DNA from: Telopea speciosissima
Taxonomy: Eukaryota; Streptophyta; Magnoliopsida; Proteales; Proteaceae
Direction: 5' to 3'
DNA length: 64,000 nt
Assembly: GCF_018873765.1 (NCBI RefSeq)
Contig: NC_057918.1
Coordinates: forward strand, 12,718,862-12,782,861
Shown here: positions 3,001 through 55,757 of the stretch, piece after piece
How positions within the stretch are numbered: position 1 is the stretch's first letter
How the letters are laid out: the number at the start of each line of letters is the position of its first letter
Made by a program: the position numbers and the translations under genes
The notes under the pieces: model-generated
What the model saw: only the letters and a program-made list of their open reading frames with translations
Told to the model about the DNA's origin: nothing
Databases searched by the model: none

Positions 3001-5449
3001 TCTAAGGGCTGTCAGTGATGGTCGCCCTAAGAGGCCGTTGAAGGACACCACGGACTTGACTACCATGAAATTTACCATGATGGTTACTTGTTGAGGGTGT
3101 ATCCCGAAGGTGACGGGTAGCTCTATGGTACCTCTGATGGAGGCGGTGGCACCTGAGAATCCATGGAGATAAGTGGGCTCTAGTTTGAGCTGGTCGTCCT
3201 CGAACCCGAATTGTCGATAGGCGTCCAAGGAGAGTACGTCAACGGACGCCCCGTGTCTATCGGTACCACGTATGCAGGTCGATTGGCTACCTCCACTGTA
3301 CTACCAGGGCATCTTCATGCGGGAAGTTTAGTCCTTCCAGGTCTTCATCCGAGAAGGAGATCACCGCCTCAGTCTTGGCTATCTTGCTGGGCTTCTCTGC
3401 CACTCCCACGAACCTGGCATGGGCTTTAGCTTTTCTGGTGGACTCTTGCCCTGGTCCTCCAAGTATGGTGAGGATAGGAGGTCCCTTGGTGCCACTAGGT
3501 TACGTGGCATCTCTCCGCCTCTTCGGCTGTCTCTCTCTCGACTGTTCTTCTTTCTTCTCGTCTCGGCTCCACTCTGTCTCCGTCGCGACCTCTATCTCCT
3601 TGGCCTGAGCGGTTGTCACGTCTCCCCTTCACATACTTGTTCAAGCTTCCTACTTTTACTAGTTGTTCTATCTCTCTCTTCAATTGATAGCACTCCTCTG
3701 TGTCGTGCCCATTCTCTTTGTGGAAGAGACAATATTTGTTAGGGTTTCGCTTCTCTGGCGCTGCTAAGCATGGGTCGTGGCCAATGGAGTAGGTCACGGT
3801 CCTGGATCTGCATGAGTATCTGGGACCTGGTGGTGTTCAGTGGTGTGAACTCAGGGGTGCTTGCCCTCTCGCTTCTCTCTGGGCGGCGGTCTGTCCTCCT
3901 AGATGGGCGGTCGCTCTTCTCTTGTCGGCGCTCTGTCCTCGACCTCTTACTCTCGTTGCGGTCATCAGGTGCTGACCTCTTGTTGTCCTGTGGCTTGGCC
4001 TCGATTATTTTTGTTCTAGCTTGTAGTACCTCGGCCATATTTGCAAACTCGTTGCACCTCTCCAGGAGTTCTTTCATAGTCCTGGTCTCGTGACGTGCCA
4101 GGTCCTTGATCAAGTCCAGGTCCCTAATACCTCCCGCTAGGGCTGCATCGTGTGTCCGGTCATCCAAGTCTCGAACCTCCAGGGACTCCTTGGTGAACCT
4201 GGTAACGTATTCCCTGAGAGATTCCCAGGGTTCGTACCACGTTTAGTAGATTGCGGTGGTCTTCTTCGCTTGACGCTTTGGAAACGGGTGACGAACTGTC
4301 GCATAGCTCGCGAACGAGCATATAGATCTCGGTCGTAGCCTGGAGAACCATGATGTGGCTGCTCCCTTGAGGGACGCAGGGAATGCCCGACAGGATACCA
4401 CGTCCGACCCCCATACAGCGTCATCATGCCATTAAAATAGTTGATGTGGTCATTAGGGTCAGTGGTACCACTGTAGAGTTCAAAGGTGGGTAGTCGAAAC
4501 CTGGAAGGTAGTGTGGCTGACATGATCTCTGCCGAGAAGGGGTGTTGTCCAGGTATGGAATGTGTCTCGCCTTTGGTGCGCTTCTTCAACCCTTCCGGCT
4601 TCTCATCCAGGTCGCGGAGTCTTTGATCGAGCTCCTCGTCCCTTGTATGCGCCCCCACGCCTAGCCGGACGTTCGCTGCGCCCCGTTCACGCTCTCTCCT
4701 GGATGTCCCCTCCCGCCTTGAGTGTTGGCGGGATGGTGAATGGTCATGCCGTGATGAACCCTGTCGTGAAGGTGAGGGGCTTTCTTCTCTGTAGGTCCGG
4801 CTTCGTCGTGGTATGTGACTTTCTTCCAGTCGTCCGTCAAACACGGACCTCCGGACCGATCTCTGCGGGCTAGACACCCTCGCCTTGGGTGTTGGCGTCC
4901 TCCCACGTTCTGACCGTGGCGAGAGGTCTCTTGTTCTCCTGGGATGCTGGGAAGGCTCCCCCCCGCTGCGGAGTGGGGGTTGCCTGTCGCGCAAGTCTCT
5001 CGATCTCGCGCCCCGGGAGATGATCTCCTAGGGTTTGGCTCTTGTTGAGGTATGGACTCCACCCTTCGCTGGTGAAGTCCTCCGACGGTGAGATGTCGCA
5101 CGCTGCGTCGGTATTCTCGAAAGAGTCGTTGTTCATGAGGATCTATCATTGCAGGTCGTTGATCGACCCACGAGTGGCTGGAGCATTGGGGTCGGTGTCA
5201 CCTCCACCACCACATCGTTGGCCTCGTCATTGTTGGGCTCGGCGATCACGAACTGGTCATTAAGGGGGATCTCCTCCTCCAGAGGAACATGGTCCTGGTC
5301 GTTGGCTCGCCGCAGAGCACTCTGGGGGGTGGTGATCCATTCCTTGCTCCGTTGTTGGTGGTGGTAGTCTTCCTTCGTGCCATTGAATGAGTATGGAAGC
5401 GAGCTAGTAGCTGTAATGGCTAGCGTCGTTCCCACAGACGGCGCCAATC

Positions 5450-27071: not shown

Positions 27072-28014
27072 CGTGCCAAAGCTCTTATTGACCCTTGGAG
27101 GTCTTTAATTCCACGGTGCTCTAAACATAAGGAACAAAATAATCATGTTAAAATTCGCAGGTTTTGGTCAATTGAATTGGACTTCGTTTGACATTGATTC
27201 CCTTTCCCCTTGAGAAGATTAAGATCCTACAAATTCATTATTCGATTGCTTCGATCAATTAAATCGCGGAAACCCTAATACACGCGCCGTTACATAAGGG
27301 AAAGCCGGTACGTCCCTCCGTAATCGACATATAAAATCGAAGGGTCACTGAATGGTACAGAGATGAGAGATCGATGGATCGATTTTACAAAAAGTTCTGT
27401 TAATGATCGAGAGAGATATATAAAATTTTTGGAGAATAAGCTATTTAACAAAAAGAAAAGCTGCAATCGAAGAAATACCTGAAGGAAATCTGAAGATCGG
27501 AAAAATACTAAAAAAATTGCCCGGAAGATACTCCAGATTCCGACCAACGACCACCTCGTGCTTCGTGGCGTAGGTTGTGCTCCTCCAACGATCTCAAGAT
27601 AATAGCAGACGAGGCCGACTGTTTTTAAATATTACGAATATCCCTGAACAAGGACAAAATTACAATAATTACCCACTCGGCCACTCGCTCTCGAAGGTAA
27701 AGGTCATACTAGCACTAAACGCCTACGTGCCCCTCGTCGTTCTTCATTTCTCCTCTCCGTTTCTCTGATTGATCTTCTTTTGTCCATGATCTTGATTTAC
27801 TCCAGAGCGAAAAGCATCTTTCTAGAAAGGAAGAAAGGAAATGTCTCGAGCTAACCCGGTTCGACCGTCCATTCCGCCCCGTTCGATTTTTAAAACCATG
27901 CCAGCAAGGCGAGGCTGAGGCTAGCAGCTAGCAGCTATCTTCGTGTGTCAATCAGTATCGTTTTTCGGGAAACTATTATTCCCGCCACCCGTTCGACAAA
28001 ATTCCTCAACGGAG
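27072..28014. promoter_or_regulatory. Divergent promoter between VTI11-like and PPR genes
   Basis: The SNARE start (27071, -) and PPR start (28015, +) are 943 bp apart with no element between them. A possible 5'-UTR intron of the SNARE gene on the minus strand runs from a GT at 27478 (CTTCAG|GTATTT) to an AG at 27121 (TATGTTTAG|AGCACC), which would put the SNARE transcription start above 27,480. The two transcription units would then share only about 400 bp. No convincing TATA box is assigned for either direction. Confidence 0.5.
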
Positions 28015-29493
28015 ATGCTTTTGCAGTTGAAATCAAAATTGTACAGTCCTCTACTCCTGGTCATCCGCGGACCACCATGCCAGCATCTCGAATTCTCGTT
28101 CTACTCCACGATTCCATCTGCTTCTCCTCTTTCACCCGATTTGCAAGAGATATGCCACATTGTGTCGAGCGGTATCGGTGGTCTAGATGAGTTAGAATCA
28201 AGTCTTGATCGGCCCACGATTTCAATCACTCCGACCCTTGTAGCTCAGGTTATAGATACCTGCAAAGATGAAGCGCCCAGCAGAAGGCTACTCAGATTCT
28301 TCACTTGGTCTCGCAAAAACTTAAACTGCAAATTGGTGGACGAGGCGTTCAATCATGCAATCCGGGTATTTGCTGAAAAGAAAGACGTCACTGCCATGGA
28401 TATATTAATTTCAGATCTAAGAAAGGAGCAACGGGAGATGGAGGCCGAAACTTTTAGTCTTGTCGCCGAGACGTTGGTGAAACTGGGGAGAGAAGATGAA
28501 GCTGTAGGGCTCTTTAAGAACTTGGAGAAGTTCAAGTGCACGAGAGATGGATTTACTGTTAATAGCATTGTTCATGCCCTTTGCGCCAGAGGGCATGCTA
28601 GGAAAGCTGAAGGGGTTGTTTGGCACCATAAGAGTAAGATATCTGGTGTAGAGCCTTGCATTTACAAGAGTCTTATTCATGGATGGTGTGTCCATGGAAA
28701 CGTTAGGGAAGCACGCAGGATTCTCGGTGAAATGAAGTCTTTTGGGGTTACGCCGGACTTGTTCTGCTATAACACTCTCCTCAGGTGCCTTTGCAAGAGG
28801 AACCTCAAATTCAATCCATCGGCACTTGTTCCTGAAGCTACCAATTTGATGATCGAGATGAGATCTAATGGGGTGCTGCCTAATGTAATTAGCTTCAACA
28901 TCTTGCTCTCTTGTTTGGGTAGGACAAGAAGAGTGAAGGAAGCGTGTCGAGTCCTCTACTCCATGAAGAAATCAGGTTGTCATCCCGATTGGGTCAGCTA
29001 CTATCTTGTTGTGAGAGTTCTGTATTTGACAGGGAGATTTGGAAAGGGGAATCAGATCGTGGATGAGATGATCGAAAAAGGGTTAATCACAGAACCAAGG
29101 TTTTACTATGATTTGATTGGGGTTCTCTGTGGAGTTGAGAGGGTGAACCATGCTCTTGATCTTCTTGAGCGGATGAAGAAAAGCTTTGTTGGAGATTGTG
29201 GGCCAGTATATGATCTCCTGATAACCAAACTTTGTAGGGGAGGAGAGTTTGAAAGGGGCTTGCAGCTCTGGGACGAAGCAGTGAATATGGGCATCATCCT
29301 TCAGTGCTCAAGTGACGTGTTGGATCCATCTATCACCGAGGTGTTTAAGAAGACAAAGAGAAGAGAGGTAGGAAACCTGAATGACATGAAGAAACTGCCA
29401 ACAGAGACAAAGATAAAGCAAAAAATGGGGAAGAAAAAAGACAATACTAGTAGGAATAAGGATAAGAAGAAGAATAACACTTCTGTCAATTGA
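28015..29493 (+). CDS. P-class pentatricopeptide repeat protein, probably mitochondrial
   Basis: An intronless frame of 492 residues. The frame stays open 24 codons further upstream but without an ATG, so the first ATG at 28015 is taken as the start. The N-terminus MLLQLKSKLYSPLLL, basic and hydroxylated without acidic residues, looks like an organelle presequence. Plant P-type PPR motifs run from about residue 180 to 430, for example YKSLIHGWCVHGNVREARRI (from 217), SFNILLSCLGRTRRVKEACR and VYDLLITKLCRGGEFERGLQ. No E or DYW extension is present. Instead the protein ends in a Lys/Asn-rich tail (KKKDNTSRNKDKKKNN). PPRs bind organelle RNA in a sequence-specific way. It resembles the Arabidopsis At5g61370 group by layout, but orthology is inferred. 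Intact, with no signs of decay. Confidence 0.92.
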   Translation: MLLQLKSKLYSPLLLVIRGPPCQHLEFSFYSTIPSASPLSPDLQEICHIVSSGIGGLDELESSLDRPTISITPTLVAQVIDTCKDEAPSRRLLRFFTWSRKNLNCKLVDEAFNHAIRVFAEKKDVTAMDILISDLRKEQREMEAETFSLVAETLVKLGREDEAVGLFKNLEKFKCTRDGFTVNSIVHALCARGHARKAEGVVWHHKSKISGVEPCIYKSLIHGWCVHGNVREARRILGEMKSFGVTPDLFCYNTLLRCLCKRNLKFNPSALVPEATNLMIEMRSNGVLPNVISFNILLSCLGRTRRVKEACRVLYSMKKSGCHPDWVSYYLVVRVLYLTGRFGKGNQIVDEMIEKGLITEPRFYYDLIGVLCGVERVNHALDLLERMKKSFVGDCGPVYDLLITKLCRGGEFERGLQLWDEAVNMGIILQCSSDVLDPSITEVFKKTKRREVGNLNDMKKLPTETKIKQKMGKKKDNTSRNKDKKKNNTSVN

Positions 29494-35919: not shown

Positions 35920-37293
35920 ATGGGTCAAGAGAGCCACACTGCTCAGAAAAGAAGTGGAGGAGCTGGTGGTTCGCTTCCCACCACCACCACCAGACTAAGC
36001 GGCCGTTCATCTTCGGGCTTCTCTCGTGGCCGTCAGATCCAAAAGACCTTCAACAACCTCAAGATCACCATTCTTTGTGGTTTCGTCACCATTCTTGTCC
36101 TTCGTGGCACAATCGGCGTCGGCAACCTCGCCGGAATAGCCGACGTTGAGGCCGAGAACCAGAACCTCATCGAGGAAACCAATCGAATTCTTGCTGAGAT
36201 CCGTTCCGACAGCGATCCTATCGACCCTTCTGAACCTGCGGAGCCTGAATTCAACCCAAACGTTACCTACACTCTTGGCCCTAAGATCTCCGATTGGGAC
36301 CTGCAGCGCAAGATCTGGCTCCAACGCAATCCCCAGTTCCCCAATTACGTCAATGGCAAAGCGCGAATCTTGCTTGTTACTGGATCTCCTCCTAACCCTT
36401 GTGACAACTCAATTGGTGATCATTACCTTCTCAAGTCTATCAAGAACAAGATCGATTACTGCCGAATTCATGGAATTGAGATCATTTACAATTTGGCCCA
36501 TCTCGATAAGGAGCTCGCTGGTTACTGGGCTAAGCTTCCCTTGATTCGACGCCTCATGCTGTCTCATCCGGAGGTGGAGTGGATTTGGTGGATGGATAGC
36601 GATGCCTTGTTCACGGATATGGTTTTTCAGCTTCCTCTCTCCAAATACGATCAGTATAATATGGTGGTCCATGGTTACCCGGATTTGATGTTCGAGCAGA
36701 AATCATGGATTGCGTTGAACACCGGAAGCTTTCTCTTCCGGAATTGCCAGTGGTCTTTGGATTTGCTTGACGCTTGGGCTCCTATGGGTCCTAAAGGCCC
36801 CGTTAGGGACGAAGCGGGGAAGATCTTGACTGCTAACTTGAAAGGGCGGCCAGCATTTGAGGCCGACGATCAATCGGCGTTGATTTACCTTTTGATCTCC
36901 CAGAAGCATTGGATGGAGAAGGTTTTCCTCGAGAATTCTTACTACTTACATGGCTACTGGGCTGGTCTAGTGGACAGATATGAGGAGATGATGGAGAAGT
37001 ACCATCCAGGATTGGGTGATGAGAGATGGCCATTTGTGACCCATTTCGTTGGTTGCAAGCCCTGCGGGAGCTATGGGGATTATCCGGTGGAGAGGTGCTT
37101 GAAAAGCATGGAGAGAGCCTTTAATTTTGCAGATAATCAGGTTCTCAAATTATATGGTTTTAGGCACCGGGGCTTGTTGAGCCCCAAGATCAAGAGGATC
37201 AGGAACGAGACGGCTACTCCTTTGGAGATTGTAGATCAATTCGATATTCGACGGCATCCTGTTCATCAAGGCTCCGATCCAAACAGCATTTGA
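35920..37293 (+). CDS. XXT5-like: Xyloglucan 6-xylosyltransferase, XXT5-like (GT34), complete
   Basis: An intronless frame of 457 residues starting MGQESHTAQKRSGGAGG. It is a type II Golgi membrane protein: basic cytosolic tail, one signal anchor at about residues 47-66 (LKITILCGFVTILVLRGTIG), a stem (EETNRILAEIRSDSDP), then the GT34 catalytic domain. That domain carries NGKARILLVTGSPPNPCDN, GDHYLLKSIKNKIDYCRIHG, the metal-binding DSD at 226-228 in WIWWMDSDALFTD, and HFVGCKPCGSYGDYPVERCL. Family members transfer xylose from UDP-xylose to the beta-1,4-glucan backbone of xyloglucan in the Golgi. The N-terminal wording and QKTFNNLKITILCGFVTI favour XXT5 over XXT1/2. All key motifs are present and the frame is clean. 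The G+C content is well above the flanks, as usual for this gene. Confidence 0.95.
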   Translation: MGQESHTAQKRSGGAGGSLPTTTTRLSGRSSSGFSRGRQIQKTFNNLKITILCGFVTILVLRGTIGVGNLAGIADVEAENQNLIEETNRILAEIRSDSDPIDPSEPAEPEFNPNVTYTLGPKISDWDLQRKIWLQRNPQFPNYVNGKARILLVTGSPPNPCDNSIGDHYLLKSIKNKIDYCRIHGIEIIYNLAHLDKELAGYWAKLPLIRRLMLSHPEVEWIWWMDSDALFTDMVFQLPLSKYDQYNMVVHGYPDLMFEQKSWIALNTGSFLFRNCQWSLDLLDAWAPMGPKGPVRDEAGKILTANLKGRPAFEADDQSALIYLLISQKHWMEKVFLENSYYLHGYWAGLVDRYEEMMEKYHPGLGDERWPFVTHFVGCKPCGSYGDYPVERCLKSMERAFNFADNQVLKLYGFRHRGLLSPKIKRIRNETATPLEIVDQFDIRRHPVHQGSDPNSI

Positions 37294-39800: not shown

Positions 39801-42100
39801 AGCTGGACTACTTACTCCCTTCAAGAAAGAAACGGAAACACAAGCAATCGTCTGCTTGGTTACTTTTATGGATGGGTTCACCAATATGGAATAGATGAAC
39901 GACAAGTTCTATATGTTTACCGCATAGAAGGCTGATGTGGCAAAACCGATCATTGAATTTCTGGAAAATGAATTGGACTGTTCACATGTCAAATTTTAGA
40001 CTCAGATGACATTGAGCTTGAAAAATACTAAGAAAAACAGACACCCAGACAAAATTAATTTTATCGCTCATTTTTCTTCATTTTCAATGAATAAGCTGAT
40101 TTTGTAGCTCAGATCTTCCAATTACAATAGAGACTGGATAATCAACACTGAAAACCCCACCCTGTTTGTGAAACTGTATAGGATCGATCAATCAGCCCTT
40201 CCTGAGTACAGGGACTCTGTGACAGGCTCTGATAATATTTCATTCATTTGAGCAATTTGTTGCGAGAGCTGACTTATCTTCTGCAAAGGAGAACATAAAA
40301 TTTCAATATCTGGATAGGAGTATATGCACTAAGAAATGGAGTGGAAATGTAGAAACAAGCAAGATAATTTTTAATGAAATGCAAACATTGATGTTAAATT
40401 TTTCCAAGATAGACAAAAACAAGGAGGTAAAGCATTTATATATGAAAGAAATTGTTGATTTTCATTACTCCTTCTTTCATGAATCTCTCAGTAACATGGA
40501 AGCACAGTCATCTAGTAGTACTACTGGTTGCAGTAGAAAATTACCAACTTAAGAGCCTCCTCATTTAGAGAGAACAGAGATAGAGGACATCAATCTAAGT
40601 TCTTTTTTAATTTTTGTGGTAAGTATTCCCTTATCTTTCTCTCAGTTCAGTAGCAGACCAAAGTCTTTACAGTTTTTTTCCACTCATATGATTTTTGTTT
40701 CCATTGCTCTCTTTCTTGTTCTTTGAAGATTTTCTTTTTGATCATGCTTGGGATTAGACCTGTTCAGGCCTGAGGATTTGATGGACTTATTTCAAGGCCC
40801 AACCTTTTCGTAGAAACTCCCTTCTTACTTCACATTGTTCTTCTTTTTCTCATTTCCTATTATTTATTTCCTTCTTTTTAAGTATTTCCATATCAAGTTG
40901 CTTTGGTTTAGTTTACATGTGATGCTTAAATGGAACCAAACAGATCAAAACCAGGGTACGTACAAATCGCAAGTTAGCAGGTAGCCTCAAATATGGAAGA
41001 AAAAAAAACAGATCAAAACCCACCAAAGTGCAGGTTCTTATCGAACAGGAGAGGGTGCAGCAGAGGAAACAGTCAGTCGCAGGGATGGCTTCGAAGTCGT
41101 CGCAGGTGGAGATGATTCGAACGAGGGCGAGACCAGGGAAAATGGAAAACTTCGTTTAAACCTGTTATTTTGGGGAAAATAAATTCAAGCCGTTCGATGT
41201 AGCTGAGTCCACATGTCGTTAACCCGTGCTGCGCTGGAGACTGCAGAGAAACCGAATCCGAAGTGGAAGTAGGCGGACTCTCTTTTTCCACGCCAGCGAT
41301 CTGTGTGAACCCCTTACAGTGAAATATGGACGCTCCGATTGTCAGATCCCCCAGCCGTCGATCTCTTGCCGTTTGCATTTCTCAAAATTTTTTTTTTCTC
41401 CCTCGATGGTACTAACCCGCTCTTTAAATCCCCTTGATTTCCCCCCATATTTTACTCATCTTCCCTAGGCCGTTCTATGTTTCCGTTTTTCTTCCCTCCA
41501 ACCTTCCGACAAGGGTTCAAGCGGTAACACAGTTTTGATATGGCTGATATTGCTTCGGCCGAGCCTCTTCTTCTAAATCCTCTCAAACATCCAAATTATC
41601 AGGCAGTTTCACATGAAATTATCAGGCAGTTTCACATGAGGTAAAGCGTCGTATGAGGCAGTTATCAATCTATAGCCCTTTGAACAAGAAAGGGGAGTAA
41701 CCTCAAATTAGCCCCAATATCATCAACACCATGAGGAGGTGTCGAGTTCGACGAACAGACTCAAATGAGATAGCCTCATGAGCCGAGTTACCAACACTGG
41801 GCAGTGGGGTATTATCTCTAGCCTCTACCTTTAACAGCTTTCTTCCCTCATATTACCGGCCATATTACAGCCACAACCTCATTAAACACCTCTCTCCAGC
41901 TCATTGTTACCGTTAAAGCCCTAATCCCCTTCATAATTCCAAAACCCTAACATGTCATTCCAGCATAACTCTGTCATATTAATCACTCAATCCCAACCCC
42001 TTCCCCTTAAAACACTCTGTTTTCCTAAAACCCAAACCTAAACCCTAGAAATTTCAGAATTTCAAAATTAATCAAAAATTAACCCTTTTTTATTTATTTC
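39800..42100. other. Intergenic, mostly unassigned
   Basis: No gene supported apart from one possible terminal exon at 40188-40280. The 101-codon minus-strand frame near 41,073-41,378 has no recognisable domain. Confidence 0.4.
40188..40280 (-). CDS. Possible orphan terminal exon, coiled-coil
   Basis: On the minus strand an acceptor (CTCCTTTGCAG) precedes 30 codons KISQLSQQIAQMNEILSEPV...SGRAD and a stop. The heptad-like spacing of I/L (ISQLSQQIAQMNEIL) suggests a coiled coil. No upstream exon was found in 40,300-41,500, so it is either an isolated fragment or chance. Family not recognised. Confidence 0.3.
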   Translation of the reverse strand, partial: KISQLSQQIAQMNEILSEPVTESLYSGRAD

Positions 42101-42326
42101 AGTAGTGATATTTCAAGTTTTTAAACTTGATTTACTAGTGATATTTTCAAGTTTTTCAACTTGATTTTGTCTTAGAGTGACATTTCTTTGTACTTGTGAG
42201 TTCGGTGTTTAATCTTATAATTTTCGTAGTAAATTGGTGAAAAGAAAGGGGTTGAATTGACCTTAGTGCCCTTATCACTTGATCCCAACCCCTTCCCCAA
42301 ACCTAAAACCTATGTAGTTTTTTTTT

Positions 42327-43995
42327 GAGTAAATTACTCCCCCCTCCCCTCGATTATGCTCTAATGACAAACCCCTCCCCTGGGTTTTGGGTAATGACTC
42401 TCCCCTCCCCTGCATTCCTTAGATTCTATCAACTGTACCCATTCCGTTAAAAAGGGCTGTTAAGTGTTATAGAAAGACTATATTACCCTCTGACCCCCTT
42501 CTTCTTCTTCCTCCTGCAACTCTGTCTGCAACTTTGCCCCCAATCGGTTGATTCAAAAATAGAAGATATAAAATCAATTTTCATTATAAATTGATCATCC
42601 CTACCCATTTAAAAGGAACACTACCGATCCATAACTCATCGTCTCTCCTCTTCCTACTTTCAGATGACCATTGAGGATTTTATGTTATCAGTCTCTGTTT
42701 CTTGTCAAATCTTTACTAATCTCAACAAATCCTATCTAATTCGAACAAACCCAGATTAGATTCTTTATAGGGTCTTTTTTTTTCTTATTTATTCCTCAAT
42801 TGCAGATCACTCTGTAGTCTTTATAGATGGAATTCTCTTTCATAGGGCAGCATAGAAGAATTCCAGAACCACAGGGTTAGGAATTAGAACCAGATTAGAG
42901 AAAGTTGATAGTCGGAACAAATCTGGTTGGGGCTGAACCTGGTCGATACGGTCTAATTAACAGGGATAATATGAGAGTAAAATTTGATTACAATGCAGTG
43001 GCTGATTTGAGACATATTGAGGTTTCCTGTTGGAGTTAGGAAACTTGAAAACCCAGATGGAAAACAGAAATTGGTAGCAGTGATTTAAGGGCTCAAAACA
43101 ATGATCTAGTGATTAAACAATAATATGTGCAATTAAAGCAATGACTGAAACCAGATTCACAAAAATCAGAATTGAAGAAGTAGCCTTGAAGTAGACTTGT
43201 GGAATATCAAACAGAAACCTGAAGATTATACAGAAACGGAATCCTTAATTAAAGAGGCAATTCAATAGCTGGTTGCGAAGGAAGAAAGAGAGAGAGTTAT
43301 GATATTGGAGTAACATAAAGTAGGGCTTAGCTTCCAGTTGTGATTGGAGTGACTTAAACTATCTTCCTCACTTCACCTCATCACCGTGACCCACTCCCTT
43401 TCCAAGACTCCCAAAAATGAAACCCATCTTCCTCACTTCACTTCACCTCCACTCAGACGATCTTAATCGTTTCTCCTTTCTTATCTTTTCTGGGTCTCTT
43501 CTGTTTGTCGAAATTCACCATAATTCTTCTTCGTTGGGAACACCCAGATCAAGAATGTGGTGGTTTATTTCTCCGATGACCTTTCCGAGGAGATACGTCA
43601 GATTCGGGAAGCCATTGAAGGTCTGGATGTTGGCATTCTCATTAACAACGTCGACGTTTCCTAATCCTATGCAAGGTTCTTTCATGGTGGCGGCGGTGGC
43701 TACGGAAGTGAAAGTGGTGGTGGATACAGCCGTGGTGGCGGCGGCGTTTCCTAGAGATGTTTTTAGGGTTTTGATATGGTTAGAGGGAATTATTGGAATC
43801 TCACAAATATATGGGCATTTTGGGGTTTTATTGAATATATTTAAGATGATGTCATCACTTAACAGTCTTTTTTAACGGAATGGGTACGGTTGATAGAATC
43901 TTGGGAATGCAGGGGAGGGGAGAGTCATTACTCAAAACCCAGGGGAGGGGTTTGTCATTAGAGCATAATCGAGGGGAGGGGGGAGTAATTTACTC
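42327..43995. mobile_element. Pack-MULE: Mutator-like element with captured KCR and Gly-rich sequence
   Basis: The two ends are inverted repeats of about 138 bp: 42327-42470 starting GAGTAAATTACTCCCCCCTC and 43858-43995 ending GGGGGGAGTAATTTACTC, about 95% identical by eye. The flanks are a run of nine T on the left (42318-42326) and ten T on the right (43996-44005), consistent with a 9-bp Mutator-type target duplication but weak because it is homopolymeric. No transposase is inside. The interior carries host-derived coding sequence (see 43539-43755). GC-rich long TIRs, 9-bp duplication, non-autonomy and captured gene pieces are the hallmarks of Pack-MULEs. The well-matched TIRs argue that it is fairly young. 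Confidence 0.8.
43539..43755 (+). pseudogene. Captured gene chimera: KCR fragment joined to a Gly-rich segment
   Basis: Frame from 43539 reads NTQIKNVVVYFSDDLSEEIR then QIREAIEGLDVGILINNVDVS, a stop (TAA where KCR has a Tyr codon), and SYARFFH. These match plant very-long-chain beta-ketoacyl-CoA reductase (KCR1), the ER short-chain dehydrogenase of fatty acid elongation, around its TQIK-TVVVDFSGD-LDEGV and EGLDVGVLINNVG (NNxG) region. Straight after FFH (43685) the frame switches to GGGGGYGSESGGGYSRGGGG, like the tail of glycine-rich RNA-binding proteins, and stops at about 43755. The catalytic YxxxK region of KCR is absent. So two unrelated host fragments are fused, with at least one internal stop; no protein function is expected. 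The GRP source is less certain than the KCR source. Confidence 0.75.
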
Positions 43996-44224
43996 TTTTT
44001 TTTTTAATAATTTCACTAGTGATATTTTCAAGTTTTTTAACTTGATTTTGTCTTGGAGTTGGCATTTCTTTGTGCCTTGTGAGTTTAGTGTTATTTTTGT
44101 GTAGTATGTAGTTTTTTTTTTTAAATTCACTAGTGATATTTTTAAGTTTTTTAACTTGATTTTGTCTTGGAGTTGGGCATTTCTTTGTGCTTGTGATTTT
44201 AGTGTTCATCTTTGTGCTTGTGAG

Positions 44225-46720
44225 TTCAGTGCTTAATCTTATAACTTCGGTAGAAATGGGTTGAATCATGACTTTCTTTAAATTCTCATCCATAGGTAAT
44301 TAAAGCTATCTCTTAATATTGTATGGAAAATGAAGCTCAAACTTGAAACTTGATGCTTACTTATCTAGCTCTATGATTTGCTAAGAACTGGAGAACCGAT
44401 ACATTATCCAAGACACAGCAACTCGCAAGTAGTGGAAGTCATGTCCTTGTTTCATGGTTTGATCAAGAACTTAGGCTCTTTTGACTTATTTTTTATTTTT
44501 GGGATTCAATTATGGATTATGAGGGAAGAGAAAGGAAGACCTATTGCAATAGGAAAAGTATGGAACAGTCATGAACTAGTTATGAATTCTGAGGGAGAAA
44601 AGAAAGATCAGTTACGACTTGTAGTCAATGAAAAGAGTTCACAAAGGAAAAATTTAGGGACAATCATTCATTTTCCAGCTGAAGCTTACATCTGTGAATC
44701 ATTATAGATCCGTGGCTTCTCATATTAACCGTATAGTTATCTTGTTTTCTTGTGGGCCTTGGTACTCAAACTCTACAATAGACACTGGGCAAAAGTGTTG
44801 TTTTGACTCCTGTGAGGGTCTATGCAGTGTTTCAAAATTTGGATTGAAATTAGCAGATTCAGTTGATTTGACTCAGAATCCACTGATGCCAATCTCAATT
44901 TAACCCCACTTCTTTGGTTACTGAATCTGACTCAGTTTTGGCCGATTCCCAAATGATTTGAATTGGAATCGATGGAGACTGACTCCAAAATTTTAAACCT
45001 TGGGTCTATGTGCATCATTTCCTGCACTTTTTCTGTGGGGGGTTGTTCTGGATGGGTTGGAATTTATTCATAGGGGGATCGGTTAGTAGCCCAGGCTTCT
45101 TCTTGACAGAGGTGAGGAAGCCAAGGAGTGGAATGAGGCTAGATTGTCCTAAACTGAGAGGACGAGTCTTTCTTGGCTAGAGTGTCGGCAATGCCATTAA
45201 CACCTAGAAACATGAACAAAATAGCATTCAATAGGAGGGGTACAAGGATACTTAATATCAGCAACAATCGGGAAGGTGTCAAGAGGGGAAGTATCTCCAG
45301 GGTGAGAGAGAGCTTGGATCACCTCCTTAGAGTCCGATTCTACTATAAAGTAAAGGAAGACTTCTTCCAGACCAAATAAGACAGCAGATCTTATTGCTTC
45401 AGCTTCCCCACAGAGGATTCAAGGCATATAAGCAAGCTCTGAAACTGAGAAAACTGGAGATCCTTGGTGATCCCTACCTATAAAGCTCCAACCTCCAAAT
45501 GAGTTCTCACAGACAAAAGACGCATCAGTATTGATTTTCTAATAACTCCTTGAGGAGGCGGAGACCACTGCCTCTGATGATCACCATCTCTGGAGGAAGG
45601 AACCTGAGGCTGTTTAGAGGGGATGGTTGCACATTCCAGAATTCTCTAAAGAGCTTGTCCGCCGCATATATCACTTCAGAAGGGGGGCTGAGACACCTTA
45701 TTAAAGATCAACTCATTCCTTGAAAGCCATAAAGACCAACATAGGAATGTGGGTTCACTGAAACTCCTCCTAACTGCATTTTTATCATGGGAGCACAAGG
45801 AACACCATTGCCGAATCCAAGAATGAATAGAGACATTAGCATTCTCCGGAATACAATGAGTTAGGGAGGATCCAAATCAAACTGATCTCGCATAGGGGCA
45901 GAGGAGAATGATGTGCTCTATGGATTCATTTCCATCACCGCACGACATTTTACATTTTTCATGGTGGTTAGCTTTTGTGATTGATATTATTGTATTATCA
46001 TATTTTCATTCTCACTAAAGGATGCAATTCCTCAAATAAAAAGAAAAGATGGAAAATTTGCTGAATTACTAGTCTGTGATGTACCTTGCGAATGCCAATA
46101 TTCTGAATGTGAGAAGATCAAGGGGGTTTATGGCTTAAACATTCTATCCAACCAAGGTGAAGAAAAAGGAGATTTTTGGAGGCTCCAAGATATTGTCAGT
46201 TTTAACAGAAGCAGAGAACAAAAAGTTGTGGCACGGTTCCTCTGCTTGTGGCCCCAAAGGAGAGGGTGGGGGTGGGCTGAAGAATAGTGAACTCAGACAG
46301 AAACTCTGCTTGCTTGCTTGCTGAGGGAGGCATGGTCCTTGCCAGCTGAGCTAACCCCTTCTTGGGGTTGTCAGATTTTGAAATGCATCTGAAGAATGAA
46401 CTGTTGAGTTGAATGTCGCCTGCTATTCTCAATGAATGAAATTAATGTCTCTGATTGGGTGCCCACCAGTTATGGCTGCCTGGGGAGGACTTGCATTGGA
46501 ATAAAACTCAGGGGGACCCACCAGAAACACTTTATTTTAATTCTACCTGAGTCCAGGGGATGTTGCCATTGGTCTTCGGAGCTTTCACATTGGATCATTG
46601 CAATGCACCTGGATGGGGAAGTCAATTGATTATTGTGCACAACTCATCATCAAAGGTGGACTGAGAAAGAGAGCATTCACCTCTTAATAGATAGAGAGGT
46701 TGTGTTGCATCTTATGACTT
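44225..46720. repeat. Segmental duplication, copy 2 (interrupted by LINE)
   Basis: Same block order as 38,380-39,800 and same orientation. It is longer because of a LINE fragment at about 45,060-45,945 and extra sequence at about 46,130-46,450. Right-hand landmarks CATTGGATCATTGCAATGCA and TGTTGCATCTTATGA match copy 1 near 39,680 and 39,780. Confidence 0.8.
45060..45945 (-). mobile_element. LINE fragment inserted in duplication copy 2
   Basis: The minus strand translates, with frame changes, to the zinc-knuckle-like RT tail (CSLCSHDKNAVRRSFSEP, LWLSRNELIFNK) and then an RNase H domain. That domain has INTDASFVCENSFGGWSF, GEAEAIRSAVLFGLEEV and VESDSKEVIQALSHPGD (the three acidic residues D, E, D are visible), and NGIADTLAKK. 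Copy 1 of the duplication lacks this block: its GGGTTG/TTTTACATTTTTC sequences are nearly adjacent near 39,210-39,230. The fragment has at least one stop and several frameshifts. Confidence 0.75.
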
Positions 46721-47799: not shown

Positions 47800-49066
47800 G
47801 TGGAGCTCTTTCTTTAGAGCTAAATTTCTAAGGGGCGACCATGTTGCTTTGGCCCAACCAATTGTTGCTGGTTCAAAAACTTGGAAATTCTCTTTGGCCC
47901 TTAGAGATTTATTTCTTGTTAATTCTAAATGGTTGGTTGGGCAGGGGCAACGTTTTGTTCTGGCTTGATAATTGGAGTGATGAGGGCCCTTTGATTGACT
48001 TCATTGATGGGGCTTTTCATGTTAACTAGGACTTGAGAGTCAAGGACGTTCTGCATGTGGACGGAACTTGGGACCAAACATTGATGGATAGGATTGATAA
48101 TGCCCAAGTCCATGAAAGGGTTTCCAACAGTAATGTGCAACTCTCAGCTAGAGAGGATCGCTTTGTTTGGTCCCTGGCTAGCAATGGTTTATTTTCGCTC
48201 AAATCTGCTTGGAATTTGATCCATGTCACTCATCCTGGAGTTACTTATGCTAAATGGATCAGGAATGGGATGGTTCTCACTAAGATCGGTTGCTTCACTT
48301 GGCAAGTTCTAAATGGTAGTATAGCTACCAATGACTCGGTTATGCAGGCAGGGGTTCAGTTGACTTCCAAATGTGTTTGTTGTAAGCATCTTAGGCGGGA
48401 ATCCTCGACCCACATTCTGGCATTTGGGAATACGGCTGCTAAGGTATGGGAGTTTTTTGGTAACCTTTTTGATATTCAGATTATCCCCACTCAAGAGGTG
48501 GAGTCTAGAATTATTTTTTTGGCAATCCAAGGGTTCCTTCAACAATGTTCTTAAATTCATTATCAGGATTATTCCTTCTTTTATCATATGGGAGCTTTGG
48601 CAGGGGAGGAATAATCTGAGGCATGATAATGGTATGCGCTCGACGAATATGCTAATTGGGAAGATTTTACTTTGGATTCAAGAAGTCCCGCTCCCCTCTT
48701 TCTCTTACAGGGTCGCCAACATGAAAGATGAGTTGGTCTTAAAAAAATCTGAAAATCAAGTCCCTCTCTTTCAAGTATAACGTGCGTCATCCGATTTATT
48801 GGTGCCCTCCATTCAATGTAATTACAATTAATGTTGATGGGACTAGCAAAGGAAATCCAAGTTTGAGTAGAGGTGGTGGAATTATCTGTGACGACGAGAA
48901 TGGTAATTTTCTTATGACCTGTGCAAATTTCTATGACATTTGCTCCAATACCGAAGCAGAGTTAAGGGACCTTCAGGATGGTCTTCGCATGTGAACTAAC
49001 ATGGGCCACACAACTTTCCATGTTAACTCGGATTCCAAAAATCGTGTCATCCCTTATAAATACAGA
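47800..49066 (+). mobile_element. L1-type LINE, internal/C-terminal fragment, decayed
   Basis: Successive frames give the RT-to-RNase H tail of a plant L1. The landmarks are GNVLFWLDNWSDEGPLIDF and LRVKDVLHVDGTWD, then FVWSLASNGLFSLKSAWNLI and GCFTWQVLNGSIATNDSVMQ. A zinc-knuckle block follows (CVCCKHLRRESSTHILAFG), then IWELWQGRNNLRHDNG, and the RNase H start FNVITINVDGTSKGNPSLSR...NTEAELRDLQDGLR...HVNSDSK. A stop interrupts after GAFHVN (TAG for Trp at 48,027) and frame changes occur near 48,540, 48,780 and 48,990. The 3' end of the element is missing: the copy stops about 49,066, where a TATAAATA-containing sequence begins. Confidence 0.9.
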
Positions 49067-54284: not shown

Positions 54285-55757
54285 TCAGCAGGTGGCTCGA
54301 ACCTGTAGGTAGGCAGCAGGCTCCTTGATGGGCAGAGAAGGCTGGACTTCCGGCTGGGTAGCAGCCTCTTGAATCATCACATGAATGCCTCTTGTATCAT
54401 TATCCAAGCCTTCATAGTCCTTAGCCACATCATCATCGGCAGGATAGGCTTCTAGGCCCTCTTCTTCATCATCATCATCATGGGCTTCTTCCTTGGCAGC
54501 CACGTTGATGGTCTTCTTCTTGTGTGGGCAGTCCTTAGCAATAAGTCCCTTTTCCTGACAGTAGAAACAAGTGAAGGGTTTATTAAGTCCCATAGGAGCT
54601 TTGCCTTTATCATCAACATGTGGAGGAGCAGTAGAGCGAAAGGTGCTGCCTATAGAGGGACCCTGTCATGAGGTGCTAGCGTCGGTGTAGCTCGGCTTGG
54701 AAGTAGAACCCAGCTGCTTGCTTGAAGCCAGTAACTGCTCTGCCTTCAAGGCCTTCTCAAAGCAATCCCGGATGTCTGTAACTTCGACCACACCAATTGC
54801 TCTATTTATCTCACTTGTCAAACCCAACCTGAATCTTGAAAGCATTTGGATGCCCTCCTCTTCAATGTTAGTGCGAGAAGAAAGTGTATCAAATTTCTTC
54901 ATGTACTTAGATACAGTCATGGTCCTTTGGCGTAGGGAGTTGAATTGATCCCGTAACTGAGACCTAAAGTGCCTTGGCAAGTACTTCTTACTCAGGTCGT
55001 ATTTTATGTCCTCCCAAGTGCGGGGTGTAGTACCGTCAAAGTCCATCTCCCTTCCAGTGTTCCTCCACCACTCACGTGCTGGTCCAACAAGTTTAGTACA
55101 GACTAGCTTCATCTTCCTCTCTTTAGACACATCATACCAGTCAAAATAATTGTCTAGGGCAGCAAGCCAATCATAAAATACCTGAGGGTCATGATCACCA
55201 TCGAATTCTATCAGTTCAAGCTTCACCTTCTGATTATCAGTGTGGCACCGATTAGGACCTTGGTCTCCAGTGAAGTAGGATCTCATGTACTCCTCAAAAG
55301 TAGGTTGGCGACCTCTATTTCTGTCCTGCTCTTCTCTATCTCTGTCTTTGTAGCCTCTGTGTCGATCTTTGTATTCTCGGGAAGGCTCACGGATACCTCT
55401 GGTTTTGTCCCGACAATCTCTGTAATGGTTTCTATCATCTCTAAGTCTATCCCTATGATCTCTAGATCCATCTCTGTGACCCCTATAATCATCTCTGGGA
55501 TCCCCATCTCTGTCAGGTAGCCTCTGTACCACCGAATTGAGCTGGTACCTGTCTTCATCTATGGGTAAGTTGCTTTCTCTGTCAGGGGTGACTCTTTGTT
55601 CTTCCAATTGTTGCAATCTAGTCATGATTGCATCAGCAGTAGCCTTCTGGGCTTCAATTGCAGCCCTTTGTTCAGCAACAAGCTTCTGAAACAGTTCTAA
55701 CATTGCAACCATAGGATCGGTTGGTAGATTCAATACTGGATTGCCATGCTGATCCAT
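54285..55757 (-). CDS. gag region of the gag-only element
   Basis: Starts MDQHGNPVLNLPTDP a few bases after the primer site. The middle is Arg/Asp-rich low complexity, then comes the Ty3/gypsy-type gag fold (FDGDHDPQVFYDWLAALDNY, WEDIKYDLSKKYLPRHFRSQ, QMLSRFRLGLTSEINRAI) and a zinc-knuckle-like segment (CFYCQEKGLIAKDCPHKK). An acidic tail follows. The gag would package element RNA with enzymes supplied by an autonomous relative. About one break, hence probably not active. Confidence 0.8.

Follow-up and report, generated by a model that had tools for sequence, protein, structure and literature searches.

A Telopea speciosissima element with the hallmarks of a Pack-MULE joins pieces of a KCR-type gene and a glycine-rich RNA-binding-protein gene

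At 42327-43995 of a 64-kb stretch of the Telopea speciosissima genome (C3:12718862-12782861, hereafter the window), 1,669 bp bounded by inverted repeats bring together a fragment resembling a beta-ketoacyl-CoA reductase (KCR) gene and a glycine-rich coding segment. Is this a transposon carrying host gene pieces, as a preliminary description proposed in calling it a Pack-MULE, and if so, where did the pieces come from, in what order were they taken up, and do they encode anything in their new setting? Comparison of the window with the 823-Mb genome leads us, with high confidence, to the same reading of the element, as a non-autonomous Mutator-like transposon (MULE) that took up host-gene pieces stepwise and was amplified by transposase supplied in trans. 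The reading draws on the terminal inverted repeats (TIRs), on 9-bp target site duplications that are perfect in 24 of 27 copies, on pieces of two host genes and on a TIR relative bearing transposase domains. Upstream of the element the window holds a glycosyltransferase family 34 ORF (35920-37293, 457 aa) and a PPR-repeat ORF (27943-29493, 516 aa), and retrotransposon-like pieces with RNase H-like, zf-RVT and gag domains lie at 961-1980, 48033-48554 and 54666-55757.

MULE TIRs are typically 100-500 bp long, and MULE insertion produces a target site duplication of 9-11 bp. The TIRs, previously described as nearly identical and ∼138 bp long, measure 140 nt each and are 96% complementary (6 mismatches in 140), a length in keeping with a MULE; the termini begin with GAGTAAATTACTCC, and each TIR contains three units spaced ∼30 bp apart, with CCCCTCCCC or its complement in every unit. 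The flanking T-runs are where they had been reported, T9 at 42318-42326 (after TATGTAG) and T10 at 43996-44005. The insertion point is a T-run inside locally repeated sequence, and a sibling repeat unit at 44105, in which TATGTAG is followed by an unbroken T11 (AAATTCACTAGTGATATTTT), approximates the empty site. The element was also correctly said to lack an internal transposase, the longest of its ORFs of at least 40 aa having 152 aa and no Pfam match. An Rfam scan of 41800-44500 returned nothing at gathering scores. The features, in order along the window, are as follows.

42318-42326, no strand: left copy of the 9-bp target site duplication, TTTTTTTTT, with the same 9 bp opening the right flank
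42327-42466, + strand: left TIR with three CCCCTCCCC units, from inverted-repeat comparison
42467-42570, + strand: left MULE subterminal sequence, common to other TIR-A elements (element 1-244 matches L087 at 86%; 1-167 and 166-206 match L079 at 80-81%)
42605-42853, + strand: captured KCR 5'UTR and start codon (ATG 42827-42829), 87-88% identical to KCR loci L036 and L035
42854-43473, + strand: 620-bp filler replacing ∼23 bp of KCR, from comparison with L036
43417-43875, + strand: 152-aa ORF from the ORF list, in a frame differing from that of KCR, across filler, KCR and GRP
43474-43538, + strand: captured KCR coding piece, N-terminal part, 94% identical to L036 1247-1311
43534-43686, + strand: captured KCR coding piece NTQIK...ARFFH, with TAA at 43662-43664, from comparison of KCR loci
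43686-43783, + strand: captured glycine-rich RNA-binding-protein (GR-RBP) piece, from L069 and L080 matches
43784-43855, + strand: right MULE subterminal sequence (element 1456/1459-1669 is 91-92% identical to each end of L075, a TIR-A element of 4.6 kb)
43856-43995, − strand: right TIR, from inverted-repeat comparison
43996-44004, no strand: right 9-bp target site duplication TTTTTTTTT, from flank comparison

The element is one of at least 31 copies in the genome. A search with the KCR+GRP stretch gave 36 rows, which were sorted by hand from further comparisons into 29 copies, four KCR-type loci, two GR-RBP loci and one second piece of a copy; to the 29 were added L066 and L068, further copies or relatives in which the KCR+GRP stretch is wholly or mostly lost. 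For alignment, 27 copies were drawn from L039-L068, leaving out L054, L065 and L068, where one or both matched ends are absent (L001-L038 mostly repeat the same copies, L035 and L036 being KCR loci and L037 an old copy). With both ends matched, the 9-bp target duplication is perfect in 24 of the 27 and has at most one mismatch in 26, compared with 0 and 5, respectively, of 702 mismatched left/right pairs used as a control. The exceptions are two copies with one mismatch and L046 with five, yet with an 8-bp match there. Only 13 of 243 letters of the right-hand duplications are G or C. Genome-wide, 469 TIR ends (233+236) were matched with up to two mismatches and none by a reversed-pattern control; individual TIR-end loci were taken from the 100 of these matches listed, and copy counts are lower bounds, as the TIR search scored 40 of 891 candidates. 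Copies with the same breakpoints occupy many sites, and each has a duplication of its own, indicating that the element was mobilised after capture. The preliminary description had let the Pack-MULE reading depend on a KCR match and on 9-bp duplications at further TIR copies; both were found, and the reading stands.

Transposase domains (DBD_Tnp_Mut, MULE and SWIM) occur in reading frames of another member of the TIR-A family, L086, which is flanked by exact TIR-A ends 6,916 bp apart (C3:60002032 and 60008947). At both ends of the stretch it is 94-96% identical to L075, whose ∼590-bp TIRs are 95% alike and whose remnant keeps a CSNCKEVGHNSRKC stretch that we take to be zinc-knuckle-like. The first two transposase frames of L086 are separated by an in-frame stop or an intron, and an uninterrupted full transposase was not seen in the part read, ∼3.2 kb of the 6.9-kb element lying outside it. 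A Sugar_tr fragment sits within this element (3235-3582, + strand), for which reason it looks like a transposase-bearing MULE with cargo of its own. Open C-terminal transposase frames, 95-98% identical, are found on C11 (29394120) and C9 (48992784); results of the PF10551 profile search are lower bounds, 150 of 828 candidates having been scored. L076, with a FAR1-like MULE ORF, was rejected as an autonomous partner: of its four TIR-A fragments, all oriented away from the ORF, three form part of a 222-bp tandem array. These fragments, at 109-952 and downstream of the ORF, are TIR-A ends of 42-43 bp.

The KCR homology comprises the three pieces listed above and is larger than first noted. The frame NTQIK...EGLDVGILINNV...SYARFFH is present at 43539-43685 as originally reported, except that its internal TAA (43662-43664) had been passed over, and at the DNA level this segment is 88-94% identical to four KCR-type loci. 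Relative to L036, 194 bp are deleted between the two coding pieces, which meet at TTGGG microhomology; the length is not divisible by three, and the deletion shifts the reading frame. The open exon-1 frame of L035 matches the Pfam short-chain dehydrogenase family, and a PDB search with this exon gave 22 sequences at E ≤1e-10, all with short-chain dehydrogenase/reductase-type names and none of the 22 named as a plant KCR; that the family is KCR we presume from its resemblance to plant KCR sequences. Within its 3.2 kb, L036 (C8:6.4 Mb) includes exon 1, an exon farther downstream (identified by eye) and a local hairpin of 68 bp, but no flanking inverted repeats. It appears to be an intact KCR gene and, on sequence comparison, the best-fitting donor, since it has in common with the element 16 bp upstream of the 5'UTR piece and is the closer locus over both coding pieces. 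Elsewhere, four KCR-type exon-1 matches lie within 30 kb at C3:4871781-4901764, probably a tandem cluster.

The glycine-rich tail, originally likened to an RNA-binding protein, comes from a GR-RBP gene. The element contains two captured sources as proposed, and the suggested search of the same genome recovered a gene of each kind, KCR gene L036 and GR-RBP gene L080. The piece consists of Gly-rich coding sequence (43686-43744) and 3'UTR (43748-43783), and its best matches start at 43685/43686, placing the reported switch correctly to 1-2 nt. It is 91% identical over 53 bp to L069 and 97% over 31 bp to L080, and the 3'UTR part matches at 83-84%. The shortness and repetitiveness of the piece leave it uncertain whether gene L080, the L069 copy that lacks introns or an older TIR-A element was the exact donor. 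GR-RBP genes on C5 (8221080, 8221592) and C4 (13847860, 13848419) appear intron-split; L069 has an uninterrupted GR-RBP frame between 63-bp inverted repeats (671-2332) and could be either a processed or a captured copy.

Four other TIR-A elements or parts of elements (L079, L081, L083 and L084) have GRP pieces, with a GRP-3'UTR/MULE junction corresponding to element 1422- or 1430-1662/1669 at 85-92% identity. None of them matches the KCR pieces or is among the 43 rows of the genome KCR search, a count of four out of the four GRP-bearing TIR-A loci examined from a longer list of GRP-fragment rows. As these related loci have the junction and no KCR, GRP was probably captured before KCR in a stepwise manner.

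The filler between the KCR pieces makes up 37% of the element and occurs in its copies; elsewhere it has only partial matches of 76-81% on C7, C8 and C9, a ∼78-bp piece of it recurs at five loci outside the copies, and its source was not found among the genome candidates scored (40 of 102 for each of these results). Nor was a source found for the 34 bp at 42571-42604. L089 was rejected as a filler donor because it resembles a portion of an old copy, interrupted by ∼16 kb of other sequence. We propose that an ancestral TIR-A element took the 3' end of a GR-RBP gene and that one descendant added, next to it, the 5' portion of the KCR gene on C8, probably during gap repair or by template switching, which left filler and a deletion at microhomology. 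A stop codon would have arisen before the chimera was copied, by transposase acting in trans, to at least 31 sites, the youngest of them recently. Repair-based models lead one to expect seams of this kind, with filler and a deletion at 5 bp of microhomology.

Pairwise differences among the 27 aligned copies range from 0.24 to 9.1% (median 4.7%), or from 0.26 to 7.5% (median 3.9%) with CAG/CTG sites masked, and the window copy differs from its nearest copy by 0.66%. The insertion had been called recent from the identity of its TIRs; by nearest-copy divergence it is indeed fairly recent, and the argument from the TIRs had to be rejected. Five of the six TIR differences of the window copy are already in the family consensus, so TIR identity is a poor clock that mostly mirrors the ancestor. 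In 11 of the 27 copies (L045, L046, L049-L052, L055, L062, L064, L066 and L067), CAG/CTG triplets have lost their central base at 86 of 501 sites and carry an A>G or T>C change of that base at 96, compared with 0 deletions and 14 such changes at 741 sites in the other 16, the two groups having been drawn on the very pattern being counted. The same 11 copies account for 74 of 87 small deletions at other A/T sites and 160 of 184 at G/C sites, at lower per-site rates, and the window copy is free of the pattern (0 of 47). The pattern resembles nanopore base-calling errors at methylated CHG sites and is possibly due to them, which would explain many small frame breaks in the 11 copies; a literature search on nanopore errors at CHG sites found nothing on point.

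Other explanations of the locus concern the nature of the repeat and the route by which KCR entered it. A chance inverted repeat or a segmental duplication has practically no probability, given that the copies stand in differing flanks, 24 of 27 with a perfect duplication of their own, and that no evidence in its favour was found. KCR could also have come second-hand, not from the gene, if the donor were the putative Pack-MULE at L035 (1-3153; C2:42498000-42501152). There, ∼207-bp inverted repeats that are 85% alike and unlike the TIRs of the element in sequence enclose KCR exon 1, whose open frame has 214 aa. The longest KCR piece is 93.5% identical in L035 and the element, and for the 5'UTR piece L035 has a marginal lead over L036 (88.0 vs 87.6%), whereas the 16 upstream bp are absent from both L035 and L085 and the coding pieces are nearer L036, albeit by small differences (94.1 vs 93.5% and 95.2 vs 91.9%), making this route unlikely. 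Exon 1 of L035 is identical to that of L036 at 628 of 642 nt and is likely to be a separate capture of a KCR gene by another element.

Whether the captured pieces do anything for the host is the remaining point of dispute. Across the KCR/GRP junction the two reading frames stay in phase, as was claimed, and on this ground the fusion might encode a new protein; this we regard as extremely improbable. The TAA is present in 26 of the 26 aligned copies that keep the site (L066 has lost it), and KCR loci L035, L036 and L074 have TAT there. Because this stop is accompanied by the 620-bp filler and the frame-shifting deletion upstream, a protein-coding fusion is rejected, and the supposed KCR-GRP coding fusion is a shared pseudogene. 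We judge the 152-aa ORF to be a chance frame; its ATG and a frame of at least 136 aa are kept in 8 of the 16 copies outside the small-indel pattern. A protein function is not likely, and the element is most likely transposon cargo without one. Transcription of the element may start in its TIRs, and it may be a source of small RNAs; PMC8277862 describes Pack-MULEs as open to transcription and as possibly coding for small RNAs. The window copy has 86 21-mers and 71 24-mers in common with L036, with a longest identical run of 52 nt over the 5'UTR and start codon (42785-42836), as opposed to five 21-mers with L080 and none with L082. This overlap is compatible with regulatory small RNAs from the element lowering expression of the parent KCR gene, an effect that nevertheless seems doubtful.

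A broader scenario, which we consider rather improbable, is a ladder of captures in which a cargo-bearing transposase MULE would have given rise to GR-RBP-only daughters and these to granddaughters that added KCR and spread, with an unrelated element separately capturing a near-identical KCR exon 1. Were it true, and were small RNAs to cover the 52-nt KCR start region, very-long-chain fatty acid synthesis would have a dispersed regulator in this element.

The reading of the element as a Pack-MULE places it among known systems, since multi-copy and multi-locus Pack-MULEs are described in PMC13317346, PMC8903248, PMC3310237 and PMC8277862; the element is well preserved, belongs to a known kind and is no new system. 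The Pack-MULE literature searched, in a search not aimed at this element, does not name it. How multi-gene cargo is assembled in Pack-MULEs is not fully settled according to PMC3310237 (2012) and PMC8277862 (2021); PMC13317346 and PMC8903248 refer to a mechanism established for Pack-CACTA elements. Here the sister elements keep an apparent intermediate of such assembly, so that the order GRP then KCR is readable from sequence, and the family illustrates that an in-frame-looking fusion can prove a shared pseudogene and not a new gene.

L086 resembles MuDR-type autonomous MULEs in its DBD_Tnp_Mut, MULE and SWIM domains and differs in that its stretch also holds the Sugar_tr fragment. Rice Pack-MULEs (Jiang et al. 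2004, as cited in PMC13317346 and PMC8903248) are similar to the window element in their non-autonomous MULE ends, 9-11-bp duplications and host gene fragments, sometimes from several loci and sometimes in multiple copies; what differs is the presence here of at least 31 copies of one chimera together with sisters at a seemingly earlier stage of capture. The tomato PM-ZIBP family is likewise a multi-copy Pack-MULE with a captured gene fragment, its members among the rows consulted in PMC3310237 being 0.9-1.4 kb long with AT-rich 9-10-bp target duplications. By the same source, most PM-ZIBP elements have tandem TIRs (13 vs 1), whereas the Telopea element has single TIRs and pieces of two genes.
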